Source: Spirochaetia bacterium (GTDB lineage: Bacteria > Spirochaetota > Spirochaetia > Treponematales > Breznakiellaceae). From it: a stretch of 14,615 nt of DNA. Numbering within the stretch: position 1 is the first letter of the stretch; each line of letters begins with the position of its first letter. Made by a program: the position numbers and the translations under genes. Shown piece by piece: positions 2,459-14,615 of this stretch. Location of the stretch: assembly GCA_026002305.1 (NCBI GenBank), contig BOBI01000046.1, positions 1-14,615 of the forward strand, in the 5' to 3' direction. Below the pieces are notes generated by a model, which had not been told where the DNA came from, did not search any database, and saw nothing but the letters and a program-made list of their open reading frames with translations.

Positions 2459-2500
2459 TGCCGGCGATCGGACTTGAACCGATACGCTATCGCTAGCAGT
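2459..2500 (-). other. Probable attachment site (3' half of tRNA-Leu)
   Basis: Tyrosine integrases of this kind usually recombine in the anticodon-to-3' half of a tRNA gene and rebuild the tRNA. The integrase remnant begins 144 bases from the tRNA 3' end and points away from it. The exact crossover cannot be placed because the duplicate att repeat is not in the window. Confidence 0.4.
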
Positions 2501-2541
2501 AGATTTTGAGTCTACCGTGTCTGCCATTTCACCACGCCGGC
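2459..2541 (-). tRNA. tRNA-Leu (anticodon CAA)
   Basis: The minus strand folds into a full class II tRNA of 83 bases. The acceptor stem is GCCGGCG with CGCCGGC plus discriminator A. The anticodon stem GTAGA/TCTAC holds the loop CTCAAAA, giving anticodon CAA. The variable arm is long (GCTA-GCGA-TAGC), and the T arm is ATCGG-TTCAAGT-CCGAT. The long variable arm and A73 fit leucine, reading UUG codons. CCA is not encoded: the bases after A73 are TAT, so it must be added by nucleotidyltransferase. Confidence 0.96.
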
Positions 2542-2626: not shown

Positions 2627-3982
2627 TCAGGAAATCTTTCTACATTCAAGATAAAAGCGTTTTTCGCTAGGCTCGCCCATAGAAAATGTCTTCCGCGGAA
2701 GCGCGCCGTTTTTAGAAATCGCTGTAAAAAGTTGATTTTTCTTGAACGGCGGCATGAGAATCCCTGTATTTCTTGAACCTTCCGCGCCGGAAAGCCTGAA
2801 TAACTCTTCTATACCGTGAATATAATCAATCGAAATTGCGTCCCCGCCTGTAGTTTTTGATGAATTCGCAAGTTTATCAAGTATGGGCTCCAAAAATTCA
2901 ACGGAAATTTTAGTATTATCGAATTGGGCTAATGTAAATTTACCGCCGCAAAACAAGCCGACTCTGTTTTTTTCATTGTTATCTTGGGCAACAAGCCGGA
3001 CAAGCTCATTTTTACTTATAAGTGTGCTGCACTCAAAACCGGGAAGCTCTTGCATAGCCTTCAACACCAAATCCTGATCCGCGTTAAAGACAATACGGTG
3101 TATCGGCTCAAAATCAAGAGCCGGATCGTAAAGGTTTACCACCTCCACCATAGCATAGCGGCATGGGTGGTCTAAACATGAATCCCCGCCATGCGCAGCC
3201 TTGTATTCCTCCCATGCGGCTTTTGCCGTCGCCAGTGAGTGGTTTCCATCACCTACGGCAAATATCATCCCTTGTTCACTGTCAAGCGTTGTCCGCGATT
3301 TACGTAAAAGATATTCAAAGGCATCGGCAATAAACGCCCAGTCATTCCTGCGGTACAGCAGACGGGCGCTGACTTTGCCGCCGTCCATCATAAGCTGGGC
3401 ATTGTAAGCATCCGGCGCACCGTGCAAAACATTTTTTAACAATGTCATCAAGATGTTTTCCTCGTCGTTAATTAAAAGCAAAATATGCGGCAATTCCAGC
3501 GCCGCGCCGCGTCGTATTTCCAAACGCGGAGGTATGCGCTCCCGTATCGTACCTTCGGTAGTACGTATCAAACCTTTTGCACTATTGTGCCAGTCATAAC
3601 ATTCAAGATCCACCGCGATAATAAGCCCGTATCTTGTGCCATGCAAACATTCCCGCTCAATAAAAACGCCTGCCCTGCGCGGCGGACACAGAATCGCCTC
3701 TTTGCTATATGTATTTTTTAAATAGCGATCCATTGTTTCATGAATTCGCTGCACCCTATCCGCCTTATCGGGAGCGTTCAGGTAAATTTCGGGATAAATC
3801 ATGTTTAAGGTTGAAGGCGAATCACCAACAATCTTCTCAACCTGCTCCCAATAAGCGGCATCCTGCGTCCACTGATCGCAGGCAATAACCGCCCATTTTC
3901 TAATATCAACATTTTTTGCGGGCAGGATAATTTCCGGTATAACAACGCCCATACTCATAAGTTTTTCGTCTACTTGGTTCAT
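2627..3982 (-). CDS. DUF1015 family protein
   Basis: The product of about 451 residues matches the DUF1015 family, soluble proteins of unknown function found in Treponema, Clostridia and other bacteria. Family marks are the N-terminal WAVIACDQWTQD segment (about 30-41), the block IRTTEGTIRERIPPRLEIRR (about 139-158) and the motif AVGDGNHSLATAK (about 242-254), whose Asp, Asn and His suggest a ligand- or metal-binding site. There is no signal peptide or membrane span. I chose the ATG at 3982; a TTG two codons upstream (3988) is also in frame, and neither has a strong ribosome-binding site. It ends with TGA and is followed by a hairpin. It is divergent from the signalling operon, sharing a short intergenic region. 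Its length is normal for the family and it seems intact. Its biochemical role is not established, and nothing in this neighbourhood defines it. Confidence 0.9.
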   Translation of the reverse strand: MNQVDEKLMSMGVVIPEIILPAKNVDIRKWAVIACDQWTQDAAYWEQVEKIVGDSPSTLNMIYPEIYLNAPDKADRVQRIHETMDRYLKNTYSKEAILCPPRRAGVFIERECLHGTRYGLIIAVDLECYDWHNSAKGLIRTTEGTIRERIPPRLEIRRGAALELPHILLLINDEENILMTLLKNVLHGAPDAYNAQLMMDGGKVSARLLYRRNDWAFIADAFEYLLRKSRTTLDSEQGMIFAVGDGNHSLATAKAAWEEYKAAHGGDSCLDHPCRYAMVEVVNLYDPALDFEPIHRIVFNADQDLVLKAMQELPGFECSTLISKNELVRLVAQDNNEKNRVGLFCGGKFTLAQFDNTKISVEFLEPILDKLANSSKTTGGDAISIDYIHGIEELFRLSGAEGSRNTGILMPPFKKNQLFTAISKNGALPRKTFSMGEPSEKRFYLECRKIS

Positions 3983-4087
3983 AACCAAATCTTAACACTT
4001 TAAGAAAAAAAAGATAATTAGCCGAACCATGCCATTTATAACGACTAATTGCAAGAATAAAGCCTTTAGGGGTATCATTTCAATAGG
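3983..4087. other. Divergent intergenic region
   Basis: This 105-base AT-rich gap separates the minus-strand DUF1015 gene from the plus-strand signalling operon and must hold promoters for both. It includes a run of A on the plus strand (about 4004-4011), i.e. T on the minus strand upstream of DUF1015. No clear long operator palindrome was seen. Confidence 0.6.
4049..4078 (+). promoter_or_regulatory. Candidate sigma-70-type promoter of the signalling operon
   Basis: TTGCAA (4049-4054) and TATCAT (4073-4078) are spaced by 18 bases and resemble -35 and -10 boxes. Transcription would begin around 4085-4088, almost at the ATG of the first gene, implying a leaderless or nearly leaderless message. 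A competing -10-like TATAAC at 4037-4042 would leave a leader of about 40 bases containing AGGGG at 4068-4072. This is pattern matching only. Confidence 0.25.
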
Positions 4088-6769
4088 ATGTATATTAATA
4101 ATATTGAAGCATTATTTATTGCACTTTGCGGATTTTATGTTTGTGCAAGTCTACATCATACACTTATTTTTCTAGGCCGCCGCATTGAACGTTACAATTT
4201 ATATTACGGTGTTTTTAGCCTTCTTTTTGCTTTATATATTTTTTCCGAAAAAACGCAGATTATATTCAATTTATTTGATAATCCCGGGGCGGTGGACTTG
4301 CTGGGATATGGTGCGTTATATTTAATGTTTCCGCTTTTTATAGCGTTTTTTGAGGATATTAGTTCTAATAAAACAATGCCCCCTACAAAAATATTTTTTG
4401 TTTTGGGTCTGCTGCTATCAGTTATTCAATTCTTTGTAAATTCGCATAATGCAAATAATATTTTCTTAATTTGGAAATATACGGCATTATTTATTTTTAT
4501 TCCATATTTTATTATCTACGTAGTGATATATTCTATTTTAGGCGCCGCGCGCAAAAATGCGGGAAAATTTTTTAATGAAAAAACAGAAAGCGATTTTTTC
4601 CCGGAAAACGAAGATAAAATAAAACGATTTCCTGCCATGGCGCCGGATTTTATTAAGCTCGAAATAAAAGAAATATTTTCCACAGCACAAGGAATGTTAT
4701 TATTGCCGGCCTTAATTATGATGTTTTCTTTTGCCCGTTATATTTCTTATTCAGTTTTTATTAATTCCGGTGTCAGGCTTTCAATGTACGGCTTTTTTAT
4801 TTTTACTGCCTGTGCGTCAATATTGCTTGCCAAAAAGTTTTCAGACCTTAATAAAATTGCACGCAACACCACTAACGAATTAAAACATCAAACGGAAATA
4901 GCAGGAAAGGCGTTAAATGCAAAAAGCGAATTTATAGCAACCATGAGCCATGAAATCCGCACGCCGCTTAACGCTATACTTGGTTTATCAGAAATTGAAC
5001 TGCAAAAAGATTTACCGCAGGATTATTTAAACACAATCTTAAATATAAAGAATTCGGGCGAAGATCTGCTCTCGCTTGTTGATACAGTTCTTGATATAGC
5101 TAAAATCGAAACAAAGACATTGGAAACTTCGCTTGCAAACTATGATACAGCTTATCTGATAAATGACACGATACAAACTAATATGCGCCACATAAACTCC
5201 AAACCTATTGTATTCAAAATTTCTATTCCCGATGATATGCCTTCTATACTTTGCGGTGATAGAATGCGTATTAAACAAGTCTTGGATAATCTTTTATCAA
5301 ACGCTTTTAAATGGACGGAAGAAGGAAGCGTAACATTCGATATTAAATTTATTAAGCTGCCCATGAGTTTCTGGCTTTCTTTTTCCGTAACAGATACAGG
5401 AATAGGAATAAGAGAGGAAAACATCGACGAAATTTTTACAAAGTATTCCCAGATTGATACAAAGGCAAACAGAAAGAATGAAGGCGCCGGTTTTGGATTA
5501 GCAGTATCAAAACATCTTGCTGTAATTATGGAAGGCACAATTAACGTACAAAGTGAATTTGGCAAAGGCTCAACATTTGAATTTGTCCTGCCGCAAAAAG
5601 TTACCGATACAAAACCATTAGGCAGAAAAATAATTAACAGCCTTATAGCATTACAGCCTATCGACAAAAAAACACTTCCCGACGGACTTATAAGGTCTTA
5701 CTTTCCTGAGGGCAGGATTCTTATCGTTGATGACGTCCCGACAAATCTAGCCGTTGCAAAGGGTTTCTTGAAGCCCTACGGGCTGTCAGTGGATTGTCTT
5801 TCAAGCGGCAGCGATGCGGTAGAAGCTATACGCAGCGCGGACATTGTGTATGATCTTGTGTTAATGGATTACATGATGCCGCAGATGGACGGACTTGAAG
5901 CGGTGCGCATTATACGAAATATTGGCACAGTGTATGCTGCAAATGTTCCTGTAATCGCGCTTACCGCGAATATTACAAAAGAAGCCAAGCATAAGTTTTT
6001 ATCAAACGGCTTTAACGGTGTTTTGACAAAACCGGTTGACATTTTAAAACTAGATACTATTCTAAACCGCTATATTCACATTAAAGACGGCGGAATAATG
6101 AATGCCGGGGCATTTGCAGGAAATGAGACTGCCGGTGTTATAGAAGATGAAAGAATGGAATTGTTCCGGCAGATAAACCCTGTGGACGGTATCGAAATAA
6201 ATGATGCGGTTAATATGTTTAATAATGTAAGCAGTTATCTGGAAGTTATAAAGGTATATGTTTCCGGGACTGAAACCTTTTTAGATAAATTAAAAGAACA
6301 ATTAACAAACGGAATAGATGCGAAAGAATATGCCATGATTATGCATGGAATTAAAGGGTCAAGTTACAGTATATGCGCAAAAGAGTTAGGCGACATGGCG
6401 GTAAAACTGGAAAACTATTCTGTAACCGGAGACATTGAGGCAATAAAACACGAAACACCCATGTTTATTGCCGTTGCTAACAAATTACTTGCCGGGTTAA
6501 CCGTATTTATAAACATAAATCAGGGTACGCAAAAAGAATTAATGCGTCCGTCCCCCGATAAAAAATTACTATCCGATATGGTTATTGCATGTAAAAACTA
6601 TAAGATAAGTGATATAGACAAGATATTAACTGAACTGGAAGAATACCAATACGAAAATGATAATGATCTTATTTTATGGTTGCACGATCAGGTAAATAAT
6701 GCTGAGTTTGAGAAAATAATTATGCGTCTTGAAAAAAAGGAGAATCATGAAACGGCTGATTTCCGTTAA
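4088..6769 (+). CDS. Seven-TM hybrid histidine kinase (7TM-HisKA-HATPase-REC-HPt)
   Basis: This 893-residue membrane sensor kinase senses an unknown signal and runs an internal phosphorelay. About seven hydrophobic segments lie in residues 8-30, 37-53, 72-88, 101-118, 124-151, 200-222 and 230-248, resembling a 7TMR-type module without a large extracellular domain; a charged loop of about 48 residues sits between segments 5 and 6. HisKA follows, with His288 in TMSHEIRTPLN. The ATPase has the N box DNLLSNAFKWT (about 400-410), G1 DTGIGI (436-441) and G2 GAGFGLAVSK (466-475). The receiver has Asp548/549, phospho-acceptor Asp594 and Lys648. The HPt has His753 in MHGIKGSSY. A tail of about 60 residues (about 825-885) is shared with the next protein. 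The start is the first possible one after a TAA at 4058-4060; AGG directly before it is too close to be a normal ribosome-binding site. It is the first gene of the operon and overlaps the next by 23 bases. Confidence 0.93.
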   Translation: MYINNIEALFIALCGFYVCASLHHTLIFLGRRIERYNLYYGVFSLLFALYIFSEKTQIIFNLFDNPGAVDLLGYGALYLMFPLFIAFFEDISSNKTMPPTKIFFVLGLLLSVIQFFVNSHNANNIFLIWKYTALFIFIPYFIIYVVIYSILGAARKNAGKFFNEKTESDFFPENEDKIKRFPAMAPDFIKLEIKEIFSTAQGMLLLPALIMMFSFARYISYSVFINSGVRLSMYGFFIFTACASILLAKKFSDLNKIARNTTNELKHQTEIAGKALNAKSEFIATMSHEIRTPLNAILGLSEIELQKDLPQDYLNTILNIKNSGEDLLSLVDTVLDIAKIETKTLETSLANYDTAYLINDTIQTNMRHINSKPIVFKISIPDDMPSILCGDRMRIKQVLDNLLSNAFKWTEEGSVTFDIKFIKLPMSFWLSFSVTDTGIGIREENIDEIFTKYSQIDTKANRKNEGAGFGLAVSKHLAVIMEGTINVQSEFGKGSTFEFVLPQKVTDTKPLGRKIINSLIALQPIDKKTLPDGLIRSYFPEGRILIVDDVPTNLAVAKGFLKPYGLSVDCLSSGSDAVEAIRSADIVYDLVLMDYMMPQMDGLEAVRIIRNIGTVYAANVPVIALTANITKEAKHKFLSNGFNGVLTKPVDILKLDTILNRYIHIKDGGIMNAGAFAGNETAGVIEDERMELFRQINPVDGIEINDAVNMFNNVSSYLEVIKVYVSGTETFLDKLKEQLTNGIDAKEYAMIMHGIKGSSYSICAKELGDMAVKLENYSVTGDIEAIKHETPMFIAVANKLLAGLTVFININQGTQKELMRPSPDKKLLSDMVIACKNYKISDIDKILTELEEYQYENDNDLILWLHDQVNNAEFEKIIMRLEKKENHETADFR
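6737..6742 (+). promoter_or_regulatory. Ribosome-binding site deciding the start of the hydrogenase-like kinase
   Basis: AAGGAG lies four bases before the ATG at 6747 and supports that start over the in-frame TTG at 6729, which has no such site. It lies inside the end of the preceding gene, so the two are probably translationally coupled. Confidence 0.75.
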
Positions 6770-9700
6770 TATGACAAAATGCAATAATTGTCTTGCATGT
6801 ATTTCCGTTTGCCCTGTTAAAACATGCATTGATGGTTCCGGCAGTATTGTTGATGTTATTGCGGAACGTTGTTTAGGCTGCGGAAATTGTATTCCTGTTT
6901 GTTATCAAAAAGCACGCGCCTTTGACGATGATACAGAAAGATTTTTTCTGGATTTGTCTAATGGCATTCCCATAACTGCCATTATTGACCCTTCCGCCGC
7001 CGCGCTGTTTGCGGATATTAATTTGCTCATAGCATTTTTAGAGTCGCAAGGTGTTAGAGCGGTTTTTGATGCTTCATTTGGTGCGGAACTAACCGTAAAA
7101 TCATACTTGGAATACATAAAGGAAAAGAAACCCGCAACGCTTATATCGTCGGTGTGTCCGGCCATTGTAACCTATTGTGAAATTTATAAGCCTGAACTTT
7201 TGCAATATTTGGCGCCAATTCAAAGCCCCGTGCTTCATACGGCAAAAATGATTAAAGAATTCTTTCCTGAATATAAAAACAATTCTTTAGCTTCAATATC
7301 TCCGTGTGCCGCTAAGGCGCGGGAGTATGCGGCTGAAGGTTTTATCGAATATAACGTCAGTATGATAATGTTAAAAAAGTATATGAAGAAATTTGATTTT
7401 AGCTCTTTAAAACGTAAAGATTTTAACGGGCCTGTGGCGGAACGTGCTGTTGGATTTTCTTCCCCCGGCGGTTTTACAGATGTTATAAACAGGGAAGGTA
7501 ATCCCATAAAGACAAGTCGGCGCATAGAAGGTTCCGATGTTTACGCCTATTTAAACCAACTGCCGCTTATGATCGAAAAAGGCTGCGCACCGGATTTTAT
7601 TGACTGCTTAAGCTGTGCATGGGGCTGCAATGTAGGTCCCGGCAGTGGCGCAAATAATTCTACGGCTGTACTGCTTGAAAGCAAAATAAACAAAAGAAAA
7701 GAAGAACATCTTAAAAATAAAAGTGATGATTTTGAAAACAATATCAACAAATATTGGAAAAAGGATATTTACACAAGAAGCTTTAAAGATACAAGCGGTG
7801 TTCTTTCCCAAATACGAAAACCTAATATTAATGAACTGAATAAAATTTATTTTAAAATGAGAAAGTTTTGCCATTCCAATATGATTAACTGTTCAGCCTG
7901 TGGTTACGGAAGCTGCTATGCAATGGCGGTAGCGATATTTAACAATTTGCAAAAACCTGAGAACTGCCATCACTATTTGCGTTTAATATCGTCAGAAAAC
8001 GAAAAACTTTTGGAGAAGGAAACAATAAAAGCAAATTTGGCATCGGAGGAAAAAACCAGATTTCTTGCGACGATGAGCCATGAAATCCGTACGCCGCTTA
8101 ACGCGATACTAGGATTTGCAGAAATAGTTTTAAATAAAAATCCATCTAATGATATAGAGATGGATGTAAATAACATTTACAATTCAGGAAAAAATTTGCT
8201 TGCGATAGTAAATGATATTCTTGATATATCAAAAATTGAAGCCGGTAATTTTGAGCTTATTTCTGTTACTTACGATGTTGCGCGTATAATAAGCGATTCT
8301 ATAAATTCAAATATTGTTCGTATAAAATCAGAGCCAATTGAATTCCGGCTTAATATAGAAAAAAATGTTCCCAAGGAACTTTTGGGGGATGAGCTTCGTG
8401 TAAAACAAATATTAAACAACCTGCTTTCTAATGCTTTTAAATATACAAAGCAAGGCAGCGTAGATCTTAACATATCTTTTTCAGAAGAAAATTATAAAAC
8501 CTTTTTACATTTTACTGTTATCGATACGGGTATCGGTATACGCGATAAAGATACTTCTAAACTTTTTGGGGAATATCATCAATTAGACAAAAGAGCAAAC
8601 CGTGAAATTGAAGGCACAGGCCTTGGGCTTGCGATAACAAAACGTATTGTAGAGAAAATGAACGGTGTTATTTCGGTGGAAAGCGTATTTAACAAGGGCA
8701 GTACGTTTAAGGTTCGCATAGAACAAACACAGGTTGGTAAAGATTGTATTGATGAAAAAACCATAACCGAACTTAAAACATATAATTTTGTAAATACGGC
8801 AAATAAAAATTTTGAGATAAATAAAATAATAAACAACGGCAGGGCGCTTGTTGTCGATGACGTGCAAACAAACCTTGATGTTACAAAAGGCATTTTAATG
8901 CGTTACAAACTTTTAGTTGATTGCGTTAGAAGCGGAAAAGAAGCAATAAAACTTATTGAAGAACAAAAATACATCTACGATATTGTTTTTTTAGATCATA
9001 TGATGCCGGAAATGGATGGCATTGAAACCATCCAGATAATACGCAAGAAAATTGATAGTGAATACGCAAAAACAGTTCCAATTGTTGCGCTTACAGCAGA
9101 CGCAATAGCGGGTAGCCGTGAAATGTACTTAAACGCCGGTTTTAATGATTATATTTCAAAACCAATCGACATAATGCTGCTTGATAAAGTGCTGAATAAA
9201 TATATGTCAAATAAATTCCAAAATGTACCAGTTTATGATTTTATTAATAACGCATCTTTAAACACAGTAGAAGATAAAATTAACAGCACTATTGATATTG
9301 ATGGTTTTGATTGGAATGAGGGCCTGCAGCGTTTTGGAAACCAAGAAGATTATTTAGAAATACTAAAATCGTATGTAGAGACAACGCCCGATCTACTGAA
9401 TAATATACAGGCTGTAAGTTCCGAAACATTGCCGAATTATGCTATTACAGTCCACGGCATAAAAAGCACATGCAAATCAATAGGAGCATTTGCCGCCGGT
9501 AAAAAAGCGGAAGAACTGGAATACGCTGCAAAAGAAAGACGGCTTGATTTTGTCCTAAAAGAAAATCCGGCGTTTCTTAAAATGACATATAAGCTTATAT
9601 CGGAATTAACGGACATAATCAATAATTATTCAAGCAATCAGGAAAAGCCAAAAAAAGAAAGCCCCGATGCCGGTACAATTAACAGTTTGTTTAACGCGTG

Positions 9701-9878
9701 TACTAATTATGATATGCAAAATATTGATGCGTATATTGAAGAACTGGAAAAATATGATTACAAATACGGTGCGGATTTAATTTTAGAATTGCGAAAACAT
9801 TTGAATATGTCAAATTTTGAAGCGGTAACGGAAAGAATAAAAAAATATATGGAAGAATTAAATGAAACAAAAGAATAA
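6747..9878 (+). CDS. [FeFe]-hydrogenase-like sensor fused to hybrid histidine kinase (2x[4Fe-4S]-H-cluster domain-FeS-HisKA-HATPase-REC-HPt)
   Basis: This is a soluble 1043-residue sensor kinase. Two ferredoxin-type clusters come first (Cys12/15/18/22 and Cys42/45/48/52). A [FeFe]-hydrogenase large-subunit domain (about 75-310) follows with the three H-cluster motifs: SSVCPAI (L1, Cys137), SPCAAKARE (L2, Cys187) and CLSCAWGC (L3, Cys290 and Cys294). The four cluster ligands are kept, but the proton-shuttle Cys of L1 (TSCCP in enzymes) is Val136 and the Met residues of the L2 and L3 motifs (MPC, MAC) are replaced. A further FeS domain of the CSACGYGSC type (Cys375, 382, 385, 390, 407) leads by a short helical linker, with no PAS domain, into HisKA (His445), the ATPase (N box NNLLSNAFKYT, DTGIGI, GTGLGLAITK), receiver (Asp704/705, Asp750, Lys805) and HPt (His903). 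The tail (about 975-1037) resembles that of the previous protein. I infer that hydrogen or redox state controls autophosphorylation. Related sensory (group C) hydrogenases are known; turnover activity is unlikely. It overlaps both neighbours. Confidence 0.94.
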   Translation: MKRLISVNMTKCNNCLACISVCPVKTCIDGSGSIVDVIAERCLGCGNCIPVCYQKARAFDDDTERFFLDLSNGIPITAIIDPSAAALFADINLLIAFLESQGVRAVFDASFGAELTVKSYLEYIKEKKPATLISSVCPAIVTYCEIYKPELLQYLAPIQSPVLHTAKMIKEFFPEYKNNSLASISPCAAKAREYAAEGFIEYNVSMIMLKKYMKKFDFSSLKRKDFNGPVAERAVGFSSPGGFTDVINREGNPIKTSRRIEGSDVYAYLNQLPLMIEKGCAPDFIDCLSCAWGCNVGPGSGANNSTAVLLESKINKRKEEHLKNKSDDFENNINKYWKKDIYTRSFKDTSGVLSQIRKPNINELNKIYFKMRKFCHSNMINCSACGYGSCYAMAVAIFNNLQKPENCHHYLRLISSENEKLLEKETIKANLASEEKTRFLATMSHEIRTPLNAILGFAEIVLNKNPSNDIEMDVNNIYNSGKNLLAIVNDILDISKIEAGNFELISVTYDVARIISDSINSNIVRIKSEPIEFRLNIEKNVPKELLGDELRVKQILNNLLSNAFKYTKQGSVDLNISFSEENYKTFLHFTVIDTGIGIRDKDTSKLFGEYHQLDKRANREIEGTGLGLAITKRIVEKMNGVISVESVFNKGSTFKVRIEQTQVGKDCIDEKTITELKTYNFVNTANKNFEINKIINNGRALVVDDVQTNLDVTKGILMRYKLLVDCVRSGKEAIKLIEEQKYIYDIVFLDHMMPEMDGIETIQIIRKKIDSEYAKTVPIVALTADAIAGSREMYLNAGFNDYISKPIDIMLLDKVLNKYMSNKFQNVPVYDFINNASLNTVEDKINSTIDIDGFDWNEGLQRFGNQEDYLEILKSYVETTPDLLNNIQAVSSETLPNYAITVHGIKSTCKSIGAFAAGKKAEELEYAAKERRLDFVLKENPAFLKMTYKLISELTDIINNYSSNQEKPKKESPDAGTINSLFNACTNYDMQNIDAYIEELEKYDYKYGADLILELRKHLNMSNFEAVTERIKKYMEELNETKE

Positions 9879-12030
9879 AAGTTTGGATTTCAGGCGGCAA
9901 TTCCTTTCGATAATATTAGTACCGGTAATTATTATTGTTTCAATCTTCCTTATACTGATTGTTGCGTCATTTCAAACTGTAGAAGGTTTTGTCATGAACA
10001 ATTCCGGGTTGCTTGGTAACGCGACTTCGGATATAAGCACGAATGCTCTTGAACGCCAGCTTTCAAACAATATTAAGCAAATCGCTGCCGATACTGCGTT
10101 TTCAATTGATGATAAATTACGAAGACTGCAAAACTTTTCAAAGATGCTGTCCGAATATTGCGGTGGTATTTATGCTAATCCAAAAGATTATAAAGCGCGT
10201 GAGTTAGAATATATACCCGGCGGCAAACGGCAGACAGGGACTGTTAATGCGTTTGTTCATTCAAGAAACGGGGTTGCGTTTAATAAAGTAAAAGACGAAG
10301 CTGCACTTATATCAAATGTATCTGACATAATTAATCAAATACCGAATATATCACGCGATATTTTTTCCTGTATGATCGCAGGTGATTCCGGTTACATTAT
10401 AGCGTATGACCCTACCCAATCACCTTCGGTAAATTATAATCCTGAAGACAGAGACTGGTATATAGGCGCTAAAGAACAAGGCGGATTATACTGGACTGAT
10501 TTTTACATTGATATTCGCGGAGGCGGAATACTAATTGCTTGTTCCATACCTTTTTATCAAACTATAAACGGTAAAAAAACATTTAAAGGTGCTGTAGCCT
10601 GCACCGCTTCTTTAGGCAGCTTTTCAAATTTTATTAATGCAGTAGGGGTAATTAACAGAAAAGAAAGCTATGTTTTTTTGCTTGATAAGCAAGGCACAAA
10701 ACTTTTTTCGTCGGACGGAAGCGGGATAAAAATTGACGAGAATAATAATCTGGCCGGCGAAAACTATCTTGAAAGCGATAATAGTGAGTTAAAACATTTG
10801 GCGGAATTAATGGTTATTGGTGCAAGCGGTATTATGGCTGTTAATATTAACGGTGAAGAATGTGAGGTGGCGTATCATCCATTATCAATACTAGACTGGA
10901 GCGCGGGTGTTGTTTATAAGAAAAGTGTTATAGAAGAATCTGTAATCCCGCTGGAAAATCATATTCAGGAATTAACAACTAATATGAAAAATCATACAAG
11001 AGAATTATTTCTGATAGTTATTTTAACTGCCATTGTTATAAGTTTAGCTGCGATAGGACTTATCATGCTATTTGTTATTAAGAATGCAAAAACTATCAGC
11101 CAGCCAATAGTTAATATAGCAAAGGAAGTAAAACACATTGCCGACGGGCACATGGATTATCATGTGAATGAATCGACGGGTATAAAAGAAATAGATACAT
11201 TATCTGTAACTTTTAATGATATGACAAATAAATTAAAAGAACACATTGAAGATTTAAGATCTGTAACGGCAGAAAAGCAGCGAATATCTACTGAGTTGAA
11301 CGTAGCTACAAGAATACAAACGGAAATGCTGCCGTTCATTTTTCCGCCGTTTCCTGATAAGAAAAATACATTTGATCTATACGCAAAAATGTATCCGGCA
11401 AAAGAAGTAGGCGGCGACCTTTACGATTTCTTTTTTATTGACGATGATTATTTTGCCGTTATTGTTGCCGATGTTTCAGGCAAAGGCGTGCCCGCGGCAT
11501 TGTTTATGGTTATAACCAAAACACTTTTAAAGACGGCATTAATGAATTCCAAAGACCCAAAAGAAGCAATTGAAAATGTTAATAACCAGCTTTGTCAAAA
11601 TAATGTTGAAGGAATATTTGTAACAATATGGATTGGCGTTTTGGAAATATCAACAGGAATTGTCCGGTATATTAATGCGGGGCATAATCCGCCGCTTGTT
11701 AAAATTGGCGATAATCCGTTTTCATACTTAAATGACAATCGCCACGATCTTGTTGCCGGCTTTATGGCAGATACGGATTACCATCTTAACACATTGACTT
11801 TACATAAAGATGATGTTCTATTTTTATACACTGACGGTATAACAGAGGCTTTTAACGAAGAAGATAAAATGTTTGGCGAAGAAAATTTAAAGGAATATAT
11901 GGACAATAATAACAACAGGGATCTGCATAGTCTGCTGGAAAACTTAAAGAATACCATTGATAATTTTTCTGTCGGAAGAGATCAATCTGATGATATTACT
12001 ATGTTGGCAATTCGTATAGGGATAAACTAA
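9862..12030 (+). CDS. Cache-HAMP-SpoIIE (PP2C) membrane phosphatase, RsbU-like
   Basis: A 722-residue membrane protein with a transmembrane segment at about 14-36, a large periplasmic double-Cache-type domain (about 40-375, with NPEDRDWYIGA at about 193-203), a second membrane segment (about 382-406), a HAMP domain (about 407-462), a helical linker and a C-terminal SpoIIE-type PP2C Ser/Thr phosphatase (about 500-720). The metal-binding acidic residues are visible: Asp519 in VGGDLYDF, Asp537 in ADVSGKG, Asp658 in LYTDGITEA and Asp710/711 in SDDITML, so the enzyme should be active. The usual substrate of such phosphatases is a phosphorylated STAS anti-anti-sigma protein, and one is encoded two genes downstream. 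The Cache domain probably binds a small extracellular ligand. The ATG at 9862 overlaps the preceding gene by 17 bases and has GGAAGA upstream; the stop shares its last base with the next ATG (TAATG). Confidence 0.94.
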   Translation: MKQKNKSLDFRRQFLSIILVPVIIIVSIFLILIVASFQTVEGFVMNNSGLLGNATSDISTNALERQLSNNIKQIAADTAFSIDDKLRRLQNFSKMLSEYCGGIYANPKDYKARELEYIPGGKRQTGTVNAFVHSRNGVAFNKVKDEAALISNVSDIINQIPNISRDIFSCMIAGDSGYIIAYDPTQSPSVNYNPEDRDWYIGAKEQGGLYWTDFYIDIRGGGILIACSIPFYQTINGKKTFKGAVACTASLGSFSNFINAVGVINRKESYVFLLDKQGTKLFSSDGSGIKIDENNNLAGENYLESDNSELKHLAELMVIGASGIMAVNINGEECEVAYHPLSILDWSAGVVYKKSVIEESVIPLENHIQELTTNMKNHTRELFLIVILTAIVISLAAIGLIMLFVIKNAKTISQPIVNIAKEVKHIADGHMDYHVNESTGIKEIDTLSVTFNDMTNKLKEHIEDLRSVTAEKQRISTELNVATRIQTEMLPFIFPPFPDKKNTFDLYAKMYPAKEVGGDLYDFFFIDDDYFAVIVADVSGKGVPAALFMVITKTLLKTALMNSKDPKEAIENVNNQLCQNNVEGIFVTIWIGVLEISTGIVRYINAGHNPPLVKIGDNPFSYLNDNRHDLVAGFMADTDYHLNTLTLHKDDVLFLYTDGITEAFNEEDKMFGEENLKEYMDNNNNRDLHSLLENLKNTIDNFSVGRDQSDDITMLAIRIGIN

Positions 12031-12458
12031 TGGAAAAAAATATTACATTAACAGCGGAGTTAAAAAATCTTGACGTGCTTATTGAATCTGTAGATAATAT
12101 CTTAAATGAATTATCCTGTTCTTCAGAAAACAGGAATGCACTATATTTATCTATTGAAGAACTTTTTGTAAATATAACAAGTTATGCTTATGATAACTCC
12201 AGCGGAACGGTTAATATATTATTTACTACAACAGACAATGAAAGCAAAATCAAATTATGCATAACCTTTATAGACAAGGGGAAGCCATTCAATCCTCTTT
12301 TAAGCGATGATCCGGATACAACAAAGCCGCTTGAAGAACGGAATCCGGGTGGGCTTGGAATATTTTTGGTTAAGAAAAATGTAGACGAAATAAAATACAC
12401 TTACGAAGATAACTGTAATAAACTAACAATCTACAAAACACTGGATCGGGAGGTATAA
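12030..12458 (+). CDS. RsbW/SpoIIAB-like ATP-binding protein (anti-sigma serine kinase type)
   Basis: A 142-residue GHKL ATPase of the RsbW class, normally a serine kinase that phosphorylates its STAS partner and holds a sigma factor or other target. Visible motifs are the N box SIEELFVNITSYAYD (Glu44 and Asn48), G1 IDKGKPFNP (Asp82) and the glycine-rich lid GGLGIFLVKK (107-116). Its length is typical and it has no extra domain. It starts in a TAATG overlap with the phosphatase and is followed three bases later by the STAS gene, the normal partner order. No sigma factor gene is in the window, so the client is unknown and could be a non-sigma target. Confidence 0.9.
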   Translation: MEKNITLTAELKNLDVLIESVDNILNELSCSSENRNALYLSIEELFVNITSYAYDNSSGTVNILFTTTDNESKIKLCITFIDKGKPFNPLLSDDPDTTKPLEERNPGGLGIFLVKKNVDEIKYTYEDNCNKLTIYKTLDREV

Positions 12459-12461
12459 TAA

Positions 12462-13136
12462 ATGGCCGCTACAGTAAAAACATCCGGCACAAAATCCGTC
12501 TTTATTTTTTCGGGAAAATTGGATGCAAAATCTTCACATATAGTTGATTTGCAGCTAAAAAAAACACCGCGCTTTGTAGATGAGATCATATTCAATTTCG
12601 CAGCCTTGGAATATATTTCAAGTATGGGTCTGCGGCTTGTCTTAAAAGCATACAAAATGATGGAAGAACGCGGCGGCAAGTTCACCTGCAGTAATATACC
12701 GGATCATATAAAACACGTATTTGAAATAAGCGGCTTTATAGGCAAAATTGTTGCCGACGAGAAAACAGCAATTATCAGGAACTTTGTTTTGGGTAACGCC
12801 GCCTCTTTTTATATTTTTGGCGATCTTGAAAGAGATAAGGCTTTGGATTTTAAAGAACAGGTGGAAATACTCGTAGGTGATGGGGTTACGAGTTTACAGG
12901 TTAATTGCAAAGGCTTGAATACGATTTCGAATGATTCCTATCCTGTTCTTACCGACATACAAAAAAGTGTATCAAAAAAAGATGGTTCTCTTGCCCTAAT
13001 AAATATTTCTGACCAGCTTAAAGATGATTTATCAAAAAGTAATTTAAAAGTTCTATTGGAGGAAAAAGAAAAGGAAATAATACCAACTAACGAAATTGAA
13101 GCGCAGATTCTTAAAAAACGAATAAATGAAAAATGA
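12462..13136 (+). CDS. Tandem STAS-domain protein (anti-sigma factor antagonist type)
   Basis: A 224-residue soluble protein. Residues 1-105 form a STAS domain with the phosphorylation motif ALEYISSMGLRLVL; Ser54 matches the serine that RsbW-type kinases phosphorylate and SpoIIE-type phosphatases dephosphorylate. Residues about 106-205 look like a second, diverged STAS domain: the core strand LQVNCKGLNTIS is kept, but SSxGL is replaced by SNDSY, so Asn157 sits where the phosphorylatable serine would be. A charged tail follows. The ATG has a GGGAGG site eight bases upstream. It probably works with the upstream phosphatase and ATPase as a partner switch, with the second domain acting as a docking or regulatory partner. 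The second domain assignment is by inspection and less sure than the first. It ends in ATGA, overlapping tsaD. Confidence 0.87.
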   Translation: MAATVKTSGTKSVFIFSGKLDAKSSHIVDLQLKKTPRFVDEIIFNFAALEYISSMGLRLVLKAYKMMEERGGKFTCSNIPDHIKHVFEISGFIGKIVADEKTAIIRNFVLGNAASFYIFGDLERDKALDFKEQVEILVGDGVTSLQVNCKGLNTISNDSYPVLTDIQKSVSKKDGSLALINISDQLKDDLSKSNLKVLLEEKEKEIIPTNEIEAQILKKRINEK

Positions 13137-14170
13137 AAATCCTTGGAATTGAAACATCCTGCGATGAATGTGCGGCTGCTATTGTAGAAGACGGACGCAC
13201 AATTCTATCGAATGTGATCGCAACACAAATACCGTTTCACGCGGAATACAACGGTGTTGTGCCGGAGATAGCAAGCCGCAAACACACGGAATGGATTTAT
13301 AATATTGTTAATGAAGCATTTGTACAAGCTCATCTTTCCGTGTCAGATATTGATGGAGTTGCCGCCACAGCAAATCCGGGATTGTTGGGATCGCTTTTAG
13401 TCGGATTAACATTTGCGAAAACATTTGCGTGGGCACGCCGTATTCCTTTTATTGCGTGTAACCATATTCTTGCTCATCTTTATGCGGCACAATTATGTAA
13501 TAACCACTTGTGCAATGACAATCTAAAGTATCCATTTTTAGGCTTGCTTGTTTCGGGAGGGCATACCATTATCTGCCGTGCGCTGGATTTTGACAATATT
13601 GAAATATTAGGCACAACAATAGACGATGCCGCAGGCGAAGCTTTTGACAAAGTTTCAAAGCATTTTCAAATGGGCTACCCGGGCGGTAAATATATTGATG
13701 GGCTTGCAAAATCGGGCGACAGTGATGTATTCTCTTTTCCGCTTCCGAACTTGCATAAAGGAGGGCACCGCTGTGATGTTTCGTATTCAGGATTAAAAAC
13801 TGCCGTAATAAACCAAACAGAACAGTTCCGAAAAAAAGGAACCCCCGGTATTATACCATTGCCAGACCTTGCCGCATCTTTTCAAAAAACCGCTGTTGAA
13901 ATATTACTGCGTGCGTTATTTAACGCCGTAGAGGATAGTGGTATTAAAACAGTTGTAGCAGGCGGCGGCGTTGCTGCGAATTCGTACCTGCGTGAACGTT
14001 TAGCCGAAAAAAAAGAACTAAATTGTATTTTCCCGCCCCCCGAACTTTGCGGCGACAACGGCGCAATGGTTGCCGGTATCGGTTTTAAATATCTTGAACG
14101 CGGTGAACAATCACCGTTATGCGTTACCGCAAGCGCGCGCGTAAAAGGATTTAAGCGGAAATATCCGTAA
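13133..14170 (+). CDS. tsaD: tRNA N6-adenosine threonylcarbamoyltransferase TsaD
   Basis: TsaD transfers the threonylcarbamoyl group from threonylcarbamoyl-AMP to A37 of tRNAs that read ANN codons, working with TsaB, TsaE and TsaC. The 345-residue product has normal length and all family blocks: GIETSCDECAAAI (5-17), VPEIASRKH (43-51), the metal-binding HILAH (His111, His115), LVSGGHT (139-145), AGGGVAAN (276-283) and CGDNGAMVAG (306-315) with metal-ligand Asp308. The gene appears intact. It overlaps the STAS gene by ATGA, so its translation is likely coupled to the signalling operon, an unusual place for a housekeeping gene; it may also have its own promoter, though none was recognised. Confidence 0.97.
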   Translation: MKILGIETSCDECAAAIVEDGRTILSNVIATQIPFHAEYNGVVPEIASRKHTEWIYNIVNEAFVQAHLSVSDIDGVAATANPGLLGSLLVGLTFAKTFAWARRIPFIACNHILAHLYAAQLCNNHLCNDNLKYPFLGLLVSGGHTIICRALDFDNIEILGTTIDDAAGEAFDKVSKHFQMGYPGGKYIDGLAKSGDSDVFSFPLPNLHKGGHRCDVSYSGLKTAVINQTEQFRKKGTPGIIPLPDLAASFQKTAVEILLRALFNAVEDSGIKTVVAGGGVAANSYLRERLAEKKELNCIFPPPELCGDNGAMVAGIGFKYLERGEQSPLCVTASARVKGFKRKYP

Positions 14171-14176
14171 TAGAGA

Positions 14177-14615
14177 ATGTGTAATTACATAACGACATTG
14201 CACAAAAAAATACCCGCGCTCTACGCAATGAATATTAACAACAACGTGCTTAATGATGATTCCATAAACGAGCGCCTGCAAAACATGCCGCGCGAGCGTG
14301 CCGAAAAGGTGCGCGCGTATAAATTTTTAGATGACAGGAAACGCTCTTTTTGTGCAGGTCTCCTCGTACAGGCTGTTTTGGGTGAACAGGTAAATATCCA
14401 AGAGGATAAATATGGCAAGCCCTTTGCGAAAGGCTGCCCGCACTTTAGCATTTCTCATTCGGGGGAATGGGTACTTCTTGCGTTATGCGAAACTCCTGTC
14501 GGCATTGATATTGAAAAAACCAGATCGTATAGCCAGGATAAAATGCTGGCAATGGCAAAACATTTTTTACATCCGGCGGAGATTGAGACAATTAACGCCG
14601 CACAGGACCGCCTTG
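14177..14615 (+). CDS. 4'-phosphopantetheinyl transferase (Sfp/AcpT type), 5' part only
   Basis: The reading frame stays open to the window edge (146 codons seen). The product would attach phosphopantetheine from CoA to a carrier protein. Family marks are the N-terminal LYAMNIN segment, the block YGKPFAKGCPHFSISHSGEW, the Mg-binding GIDIEK motif with Asp and Glu, and the following helix KHFLHPAEIE with a further acidic residue. I take the ATG at 14177, six bases after the tsaD stop, because the family pattern YAMNIN (usually close to the N-terminus) lies in frame after it. The ribosome-binding site is poor, and a TTG at 14198 or the ATG at 14228 are alternatives. It continues the operon direction. 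Confidence 0.87.
   Translation, partial: MCNYITTLHKKIPALYAMNINNNVLNDDSINERLQNMPRERAEKVRAYKFLDDRKRSFCAGLLVQAVLGEQVNIQEDKYGKPFAKGCPHFSISHSGEWVLLALCETPVGIDIEKTRSYSQDKMLAMAKHFLHPAEIETINAAQDRL

Follow-up and report, generated by a model that had tools for sequence, protein, structure and literature searches.

Hydrogen sensors of treponemes were reportedly treated by Ballor in 2012. Sensory [FeFe]-hydrogenases linked to a kinase (class C1) or to a phosphatase (class C3) are entered in HydDB, as far as the accessible part of its table goes, as putative and with undetermined roles. According to the accessible parts of two studies, the cysteine serving proton transfer in catalytic enzymes is kept in just 17% of sensory sequences (PMC10055695), and a C-terminal Cx2Cx4Cx16C cluster motif is a feature of the sensory type (PMC8163306); the accessible part of PMC6288185 holds nothing on sensors. 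Among partner switches, SiaABC(D) of Pseudomonas aeruginosa brings a membrane sensor-HAMP-PP2C protein, a switch kinase, and a STAS-type protein together in one cluster. In the HptB-HsbR-HsbA system of the same species, hybrid kinases and Hpt act with a PP2C/switch-kinase/STAS partner switch, the receiver domain of HsbR being the target of HptB (PMC6482189, accessible part).

We compared with these systems a stretch of 14,615 nucleotides (the window; positions 1-14,615 of contig BOBI01000046.1, forward strand, assembly GCA_026002305.1) from a Spirochaetia bacterium of the Breznakiellaceae. We propose, with confidence evenly balanced, that it carries two modules acting as co-expressed parallel branches, with unlinked outputs that bear on one physiological state.

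RESULTS

As the preliminary description had stated, ORF and profile searches found five tightly packed genes on the same strand with intact catalytic motifs, for HK1, HydHK, a SpoIIE phosphatase, an RsbW-like protein, and a STAS protein, and the domain search of these genes matched no DNA-binding regulator or sigma factor. Successive genes overlap by 23, 17, and 1 bp, and a 3-bp gap precedes the last. The unit had been drawn to end at position 13136; the same-strand run in fact goes on through a 4-bp overlap into tsaD (13133..14170, +; t6A tRNA modification; TIGR03723, 383.6 bits against a cut-off of 296.1) and, 6 bp downstream, into a 4'-phosphopantetheinyl transferase-like gene (14177..14614, +) that is incomplete at the window end. 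The five genes presumably form a single transcript. Against co-expressed branches, terminator-like sites outnumber those of shuffled sequences (19 versus 9.3, sd 3.0), every site being intragenic, and a split transcript is possible.

HK1 (4088..6769, +) encodes a multi-pass membrane hybrid histidine kinase with HisKA (H288), HATPase_c, and REC (acceptor D594) above cut-off, followed by Hpt (H753), just under cut-off (23.5 versus 24.6), and a C-terminal helical domain. It had been called a 7TM hybrid kinase, of which the hybrid kinase stands; the 7TM part rests on a sub-threshold profile match (7TMR-DISM_7TM, 27.8 versus 29), since a simple hydropathy scan of the N terminus gave six peaks above threshold, not seven.

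HydHK (6747..9878, +), a predicted cytoplasmic protein of 1043 aa, was read from the ATG at 6747 with its GGAG in preference to the TTG at 6729. A sensory-type [FeFe]-hydrogenase domain (two 4Fe-4S motifs, H-domain, Cx2Cx4Cx16C FeS domain) is fused to HisKA (H445), HATPase, REC (acceptor D750), Hpt (H903), and a C-terminal helical domain. Fe_hyd_lg_C (96 bits), FeS, HisKA, HATPase_c, and REC scored above cut-off, the ferredoxin-type domains near their cut-offs and Hpt just under (22.9 versus 24.6), which gives a histidine kinase output in the same chain. C137, C187, C290, and C294 are invariant in 12 aligned sequences including the window and, by motif reading, would be the four H-cluster cysteines. 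On the same motif-based equivalence, V136, S185, and L288 stand at the sites of C299, M353, and M497 in catalytic enzymes, so that the proton-transfer cysteine (C299 of CpI) is replaced, and the Cx2Cx4Cx16C motif lies at residues 382-407, as in the sensory type. The profile search matched no PAS domain in HydHK, whereas group C/M2f has one behind the FeS domain; a kinase-linked sensory type is thus supported, and strict group C/M2f membership is not.

HydHK resembles, at the level of sequence, HydDB C1, a known putative class of kinase-linked sensory hydrogenases, sharing with it the sensory-type H-domain, two N-terminal 4Fe-4S motifs, the Cx2Cx4Cx16C domain, and a kinase output in the same chain. 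It differs in that TmHydS has a PAS domain, none being detected here, and in that its single chain also carries REC and Hpt. Moreover, HydHK adjoins a Cache-type PP2C, class C3 being phosphatase-linked, so that C1-like and C3-like outputs lie side by side. Elsewhere, the same assembly holds a separate C3-like pair, Hyd-PAS and SpoIIE.

The structure model of HydHK (mean pLDDT 70, pTM 0.40, below 50 over the first 60 residues) predicts one continuous helix, residues 416-463, from the FeS domain into the kinase, in a region of low confidence. In a Foldseek search with this model kinases came first, and rank 46 (E 1.1e-11) went to an [FeFe]-hydrogenase; we take this outcome as supportive only. 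The hydrogenase tree, with 70 rows and without named reference enzymes, left the nearest neighbour of the window HydHK unresolved. Its starred branches demand at least six changes of label, the label being a length of >=940 aa only, which suggests that the hydrogenase-kinase fusion probably arose more than once.

The hydrogenase class makes H2 the presumed signal of HydHK. Separately from the wiring, the FeS clusters of the domain could instead serve to sense CO, O2, or redox state, since of the H-cluster perhaps no more than the [4Fe-4S] part is present, a reading that we consider doubtful. The three replaced catalytic residues are consistent with it, as is the failure of HydG and HydF to exceed cut-off in the window's own assembly (64.5% complete). 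However, all four H-cluster cysteines are invariant, and that assembly contains HydE (537 bits versus 254.6) together with two hydrogenases whose domain layout is that of catalytic enzymes; given the incompleteness, the missing HydF and HydG may be assembly gaps. TmHydS and TamHydS, altered at the same kinds of positions, are yet active, according to the accessible part of the source.

The third gene (9862..12030, +) encodes a Cache-HAMP-PP2C phosphatase with dCache_1, HAMP, and SpoIIE above cut-off, dCache_1 being flanked on both sides by membrane segments. GGD 517, DVSGKG 537, YTDG 656, and DDIT 710, which we take to be the PP2C metal-binding motifs, supply the metal-binding aspartates. The RsbW/SpoIIAB-like switch kinase (12030..12458, +) matches HATPase_c_2 above cut-off and RsbW models below theirs; its N-box (E44/N48) and G-box motifs (D82-x-G84, G107-G108-x-G110) are intact, E43, E44, N48, D82, G84, G107, G108, and G110 being invariant in 12 sequences including the window. 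Searched alone, it matched no solved structure at E <= 0.001. The STAS gene (12462..13136, +) encodes a tandem STAS protein (two stretches above cut-off). Its first domain aligns with SpoIIAA and has a Ser pair (S53/S54), invariant in 14 sequences including the window, as predicted phospho-acceptor; the second is degenerate, without a conserved phospho-Ser in the same 14 sequences. The single-sequence model (mean pLDDT 41.6) was useless for the second domain.

These residues, with the linkage in the family described below, support the SpoIIE-RsbW-STAS partner switch proposed earlier and a SiaABC/RsbU-RsbW-RsbV-like assignment of genes 3 to 5, of a kind common in this spirochaete family. The architecture recalls SiaABC(D) in its membrane sensor-HAMP-PP2C protein, switch kinase, and STAS-type protein; unlike SiaABC(D), the locus has two upstream hybrid kinases, tandem STAS domains, no diguanylate cyclase among these genes, and a predicted phosphosite that is Ser, not Thr, and the SiaA model scores 70 bits against a cut-off of 700. 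Catalytic and switch residues are shared with RsbU-RsbW-RsbV and SpoIIE-SpoIIAB-SpoIIAA, from which the locus differs by the lack of an adjacent sigma factor.

We then surveyed 100 RsbW loci in 81 other genomes of the family, many with short flanks. PP2C or STAS lies in the gene run of RsbW at 96 of the 100 and both at 62, with PP2C and RsbW fused in one protein at 53. The proposal of a five-gene unit had been made answerable to conservation of its gene order, which was found at none of these loci; a conserved five-gene operon was thus not found in the family genomes of this census, a result that also weighs against parallel branches. Within the same flanks, no hydrogenase and no match to the HK1-type membrane domain occurred in any run, and hybrid kinases occurred in two. 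The order RsbW-STAS-tsaD was found at 4 of 100 loci. A periplasmic binding protein lies upstream of Cache-PP2C at 11 of 100 (two confirmed as Peripla_BP_4, a third confirmed outside the census), supporting an extracellular ligand for related phosphatases.

Conversely, 80 homologue loci were mostly matched through the kinase half, the hydrogenase part being present in five (L034, L035, L036, L055, and L065). Hydrogenase-kinases of three genomes (G125, G009, and G122) have no partner-switch gene in the stretches examined, that of G125 ending ~1 kb past the gene, which again speaks against parallel branches. The combination of a hydrogenase-kinase and a hybrid kinase ahead of a partner switch appears rare, each part being of a known kind.

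Such rarity would also be expected if two paralogous kinases came to lie by chance ahead of an older partner-switch/tsaD block, functionally unconnected to it. HK1 and HydHK are 39% identical across the kinase half, such kinases are very numerous in the family, and the run also contains tsaD, for which no link to signalling suggests itself. We nevertheless regard this fortuitous neighbourhood as quite improbable, given the four gene overlaps from HK1 through tsaD and a HydHK-type Hpt that adjoins Cache-SpoIIE in another genus too.

In that other genome (G127), an intact 189-aa gene encodes Hpt and the C-terminal domain, without sensor or kinase, and Cache-SpoIIE follows after 32 bp. When the 301 sequences that match it are ranked, self apart, HydHKs take the first five places, that of the window among them. 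Furthermore, a hydrogenase-kinase (P0005) and a Cache-SpoIIE homologue (P0123) from source lgn are both on 8513-bp contig entries, probably one contig, and for both of them g59 is the closest genus in the set of genomes searched. In the SpoIIE tree, P0123 and the phosphatases of the window and of G127:C26 fall within one 12-row clade (100/99), all 11 binding-protein-linked proteins being in another. The Hpt gene and the P0005/P0123 pair suggest that the link between hydrogenase-kinase and SpoIIE probably predates the window genome; it is perhaps functional.

The same observations favour a direct coupling, in which Hpt and the C-terminal helical domain of HydHK (and of HK1) would bind or modify SpoIIE, RsbW, or STAS; a single switch would then answer to both H2/redox and the Cache ligand. 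This appears rather unlikely to us: the switch proteins all lack a receiver domain, the G127 Hpt gene, with no clear ribosome site ahead of it, could be a deletion remnant, and the Hpt tail is common to many hybrid kinases, a kinase piece cut by a contig end (L037, hydrogenase part not visible) outranking three HydHKs as a match. Likewise, within that SpoIIE clade six further loci (L339-L343 and L347) have no HydHK-type match next to SpoIIE, and the three HydHK-linked rows form no clade of their own.

DISCUSSION

The preliminary description had joined intracellular H2/redox, a membrane signal, and an extracellular ligand into one decision, which the genes do not by themselves support, no receiver domain joining relay to switch. 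In this respect the locus departs from HptB-HsbR-HsbA, which it otherwise recalls: its PP2C protein is Cache-HAMP-SpoIIE, without a receiver, and neither Hpt thus has a target encoded here. With relays that end at Hpt and no receiver for either Hpt in these genes, the modules would most likely be parallel.

We propose a model of parallel branches in which the first module is a complete partner switch. A ligand bound by Cache would alter the PP2C domain, which would dephosphorylate the Ser of STAS-1; the unphosphorylated STAS protein would bind the RsbW-like kinase, which would release a client encoded elsewhere (sigma factor or other effector), and re-phosphorylation of STAS by RsbW would reset the switch. 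Both the client and the direction of the switch are conjectural. The second module would comprise two complete phosphorelays, HK1 and HydHK, each His-Asp-His in a single polypeptide. The HK1 relay would be membrane located, and in HydHK the state of the H-cluster/FeS centres would be passed along one long helix to the kinase dimerisation helix. Both relays would finish at Hpt domains whose receiver is encoded outside these genes, the modules being coupled through shared expression rather than through a phosphate hand-over visible in the sequence.

Candidates for the missing partners were sought in the same assembly, 64.5% complete, and their lack there weighs against this model. Concerning the client, its sigma factors comprise an RpoD-like, a WhiG, and an RpoS-like one and three short ones of ECF size; none of its three long sigma factors reached the cut-off of SigB/F/G-type models, and a sigma-B-type client was set aside on these three. 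Concerning the receiver, a REC-HD response regulator follows the switch-linked hybrid kinase at G078:C37 and G206:C94, and no REC-HD fusion is among the 16 matches listed in the own assembly.

A further possibility, which we regard as quite improbable, would be a hydrogen-sensing phosphorelay wired to a Ser partner switch through the receiver-free Hpt and C-terminal helical domain. If true, it would join His-Asp to Ser/Thr signalling in a way of a new kind, and G127 would present the joining piece alone beside the phosphatase gene, sensor and kinase missing.

The window cassette and its Hpt-only relative in G127 offer a concrete biochemical test of the signal target of a sensory hydrogenase. 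In guts, where this spirochaete family probably lives judging from named relatives, H2 holds a central place among fermentation intermediates. The same test would bear on whether an H2-responsive phosphorelay can be joined to a Ser-based partner switch without a receiver domain.

The five-gene run and its surroundings

The five genes that the preliminary description had joined into one operon were all found at their positions on the plus strand; the description was good and its observation real. They encode the hybrid kinase HK1 (4088-6769), the [FeFe]-hydrogenase-like hybrid kinase HydHK (6747-9878, from an ATG at 6747 preceded by GGAG), and a partner switch of SpoIIE phosphatase (9862-12030), RsbW-like kinase (12030-12458) and STAS protein (12462-13136). 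Successive junctions are overlaps of 23, 17 and 1 bp and a 3-bp gap, and the run goes on past STAS into tsaD (13133-14170, overlapping by 4 bp) and, 6 bp further, a PPTase gene (14177-14614). Upstream, an intergenic space (3989-4087) separates HK1 from a divergent DUF1015 gene (2627-3988). Across 3800-14615, promoter-like matches were not in excess (35 versus 41.6 in shuffles). Terminator-like hairpins were twice as frequent there as in shuffles (19 versus 9.3, sd 3.0), every one within genes.

At the left end, tRNA-Leu(CAA) (2459-2541, minus strand) is adjoined by phage-integrase-like ORFs in pieces, one of them scoring 23 bits, below cut-off, and ORF 2-484 reads like a transposase end; region 2-2541 is probably an eroded element at this tRNA gene.

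Two complete relays beside a partner switch

HK1 has a multi-pass membrane N-terminus with six hydropathy peaks and a 7TMR-DISM profile match below cut-off, and its relay residues follow in His, Asp, His order (H288, D594, H753). HydHK carries, N-terminal to its kinase, two ferredoxin-type cluster motifs, an H-domain retaining all four H-cluster Cys (assigned from motifs) and a Cx2Cx4Cx16C domain; the domain profile search gave no PAS match, and in the predicted structure a single helix (416-463, its start at low confidence) links the FeS domain to the dimerisation helix. Its relay residues are H445, D750 and H903, and the kinase halves of the two proteins are 39% identical over 623 columns. 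Both relays are complete as far as Hpt.

The third protein has the order dCache_1-HAMP-SpoIIE, with Asp motifs in the SpoIIE domain that we take to be metal-binding. The N-box Glu/Asn and glycine boxes of the RsbW-like protein are kept in 12/12 aligned sequences, and the Ser pair S53/S54 of STAS-1 in 14/14, the window counted each time; STAS-2 has no conserved Ser across the same 14. The partner switch is complete, and by analogy may be read on the model of SiaABC (PMC7647112) and RsbU-RsbW-RsbV.

Because no acceptor for the phosphate of either Hpt is encoded among the window's genes, the most economical reading of the wiring is that the switch and both relays would act in parallel with shared expression, a reading that we consider evenly poised. 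Direct coupling of a relay to the switch through Hpt is bolder and seems unlikely, and chance assembly of kinases and switch slightly less probable again; a gene that bears on direct coupling is described below. These gradings concern the wiring; whether the sensor responds to H2 or to some other redox cue stands apart from them. In HptB-HsbR-HsbA, where hybrid kinases and Hpt likewise work with a partner switch, HptB acts on a receiver domain of HsbR (PMC6482189).

Gene order in the family

A search of 195 family genomes for the RsbW-like protein was positive in 82, our own counted; a scripted census of its surroundings in the 81 others gave 100 RsbW loci in 99 gene runs (same strand, gaps <=200 bp). 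RsbW was accompanied by PP2C or STAS in 96/100 and by both in 62/100, and was fused to PP2C in 53/100. The five-gene order, which the preliminary description had read as one decision, did not reappear: neither the hydrogenase domain nor the HK1 membrane domain occurred in the run at any of the 100 RsbW loci. Both flanks were 2 kb or longer at 62 loci, and one flank was under 500 bp at 13, so that these absences in part reflect the limits of contigs and stretches.

A hybrid kinase lay in the run at two of the 100 loci (G078:C37 and G206:C94; handles L228 and L353), each time followed by a receiver-HD response regulator (REC-HD), an order which suggests this regulator as the output of such relays; a third run (G196:C73) had a weak kinase/receiver-like match. 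At 11 of the 100 loci, L166 and L168 among them, the run has a gene for a periplasmic binding protein upstream of Cache-PP2C, RsbW and STAS, probably marking a binding-protein-fed partner switch; Peripla_BP_4 was confirmed for both and for L169, outside the census. The order RsbW, STAS, tsaD recurred at four of the 100 loci (G031, G162, G127 and G163, the last overlooked by the ORF picker and added via tblastn).

In five genus g9 genomes, the stretches retrieved around STAS-RsbW loci also include tsaD. In genus g70, PP2C-RsbW is followed at nine loci (L222, L358, L359, L365, L375, L381, L403, L404, L405) by a constant run of four genes (~169, 629, 416 and 146 aa), which may form the output of that switch. 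Another STAS/kinase neighbourhood (L170 1192-4683; G001, C152) has a dual-STAS gene, with no RsbW match nearby, followed 39 bp on by a 944-aa hybrid kinase gene on the same strand.

Signal, maturation and sigma factors

Our own assembly (352 contigs, 64.5% complete, with the window on contig C46) contains HydE and two hydrogenases with catalytic-enzyme domain layout; at that completeness, neither HydF nor HydG was found over cut-off. Its sigma factors include one WhiG over cut-off (387 versus 343 bits), two RpoD/RpoS-like proteins below all equivalog cut-offs shown, and three short ones outside the classified set. HydHK's named relatives are Termitinemataceae/Spirochaetaceae MAGs, so that an insect gut is most likely the habitat of this Treponematales spirochaete (Breznakiellaceae: PMC13067680).

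A second sensory-hydrogenase unit lies on contig C19 of the same genome, where a Fe_hyd-FeS-PAS protein is directly followed by a SpoIIE phosphatase (L281 7560-10590), a C3-like pair with an MCP-hemerythrin gene some genes upstream. A third sensory-type hydrogenase protein, on C83 (L278 7036-9180), has 714 aa, the family's common ~700-aa kind, with a weakly CheA-like C-terminal part.

HydHK and SpoIIE in other genomes

HydDB distinguishes C1 (histidine kinase-linked), C2 (chemotactic) and C3 (phosphatase-linked) hydrogenases, all putative (PMC5037454), and the Ruminococcus albus group C enzyme is described with a putative Ser/Thr phosphatase subunit (PMC6776011); the sensory-enzyme signature is treated in PMC8163306, PMC10055695 and PMC13104023 (see also PMC8924675, PMC4070709). 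Among the matches listed, no title or abstract linked kinases of the sensory hydrogenase type with an RsbW/STAS switch, a weak sign of absence since the listings are capped and mostly lack subscription journals.

The hydrogenase part occurs in 147 of the 195 family genomes (E <= 1e-20), mostly as ~700-aa proteins among the matches listed. Full hydrogenase-kinases like HydHK occur in at least three genomes besides the window (G125, G009, G122), with no partner-switch gene near them in the fetched stretches. Two observations point the other way, toward a HydHK-SpoIIE link. In G127 (L338), a 189-aa gene with Hpt and C-terminal domain precedes a Cache-SpoIIE gene by 32 bp; compared with 257 database proteins and 3383 ORFs (301 matching sequences, itself included), its five best non-self matches were HydHKs, the window's included, the sixth was a kinase piece cut by a contig end (L037), and three more HydHKs ranked lower. 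Moreover, a HydHK homologue (P0005) and a Cache-SpoIIE homologue (P0123) come from the same source and share a longest-contig value of 8513, a coincidence whose chance we roughly put at 0.006 among the nine best rows, window included, and at 0.08 across all 120; genus g59 is nearest to both among the genomes searched.

A 53-row SpoIIE tree places the proteins of the window and of G127:C26, together with P0123, in one 12-row clade (100/99), within which the three form no clade of their own; the adjoining 14-row clade (100/100) contains all 11 binding-protein-linked proteins. At L339-L343 and L347, six further loci belonging to the 12-row clade, no HydHK-type match lay beside SpoIIE. Altogether, the combination appears rare and is built of mostly known parts, and a single evolutionary trace is suggestive of coupling.
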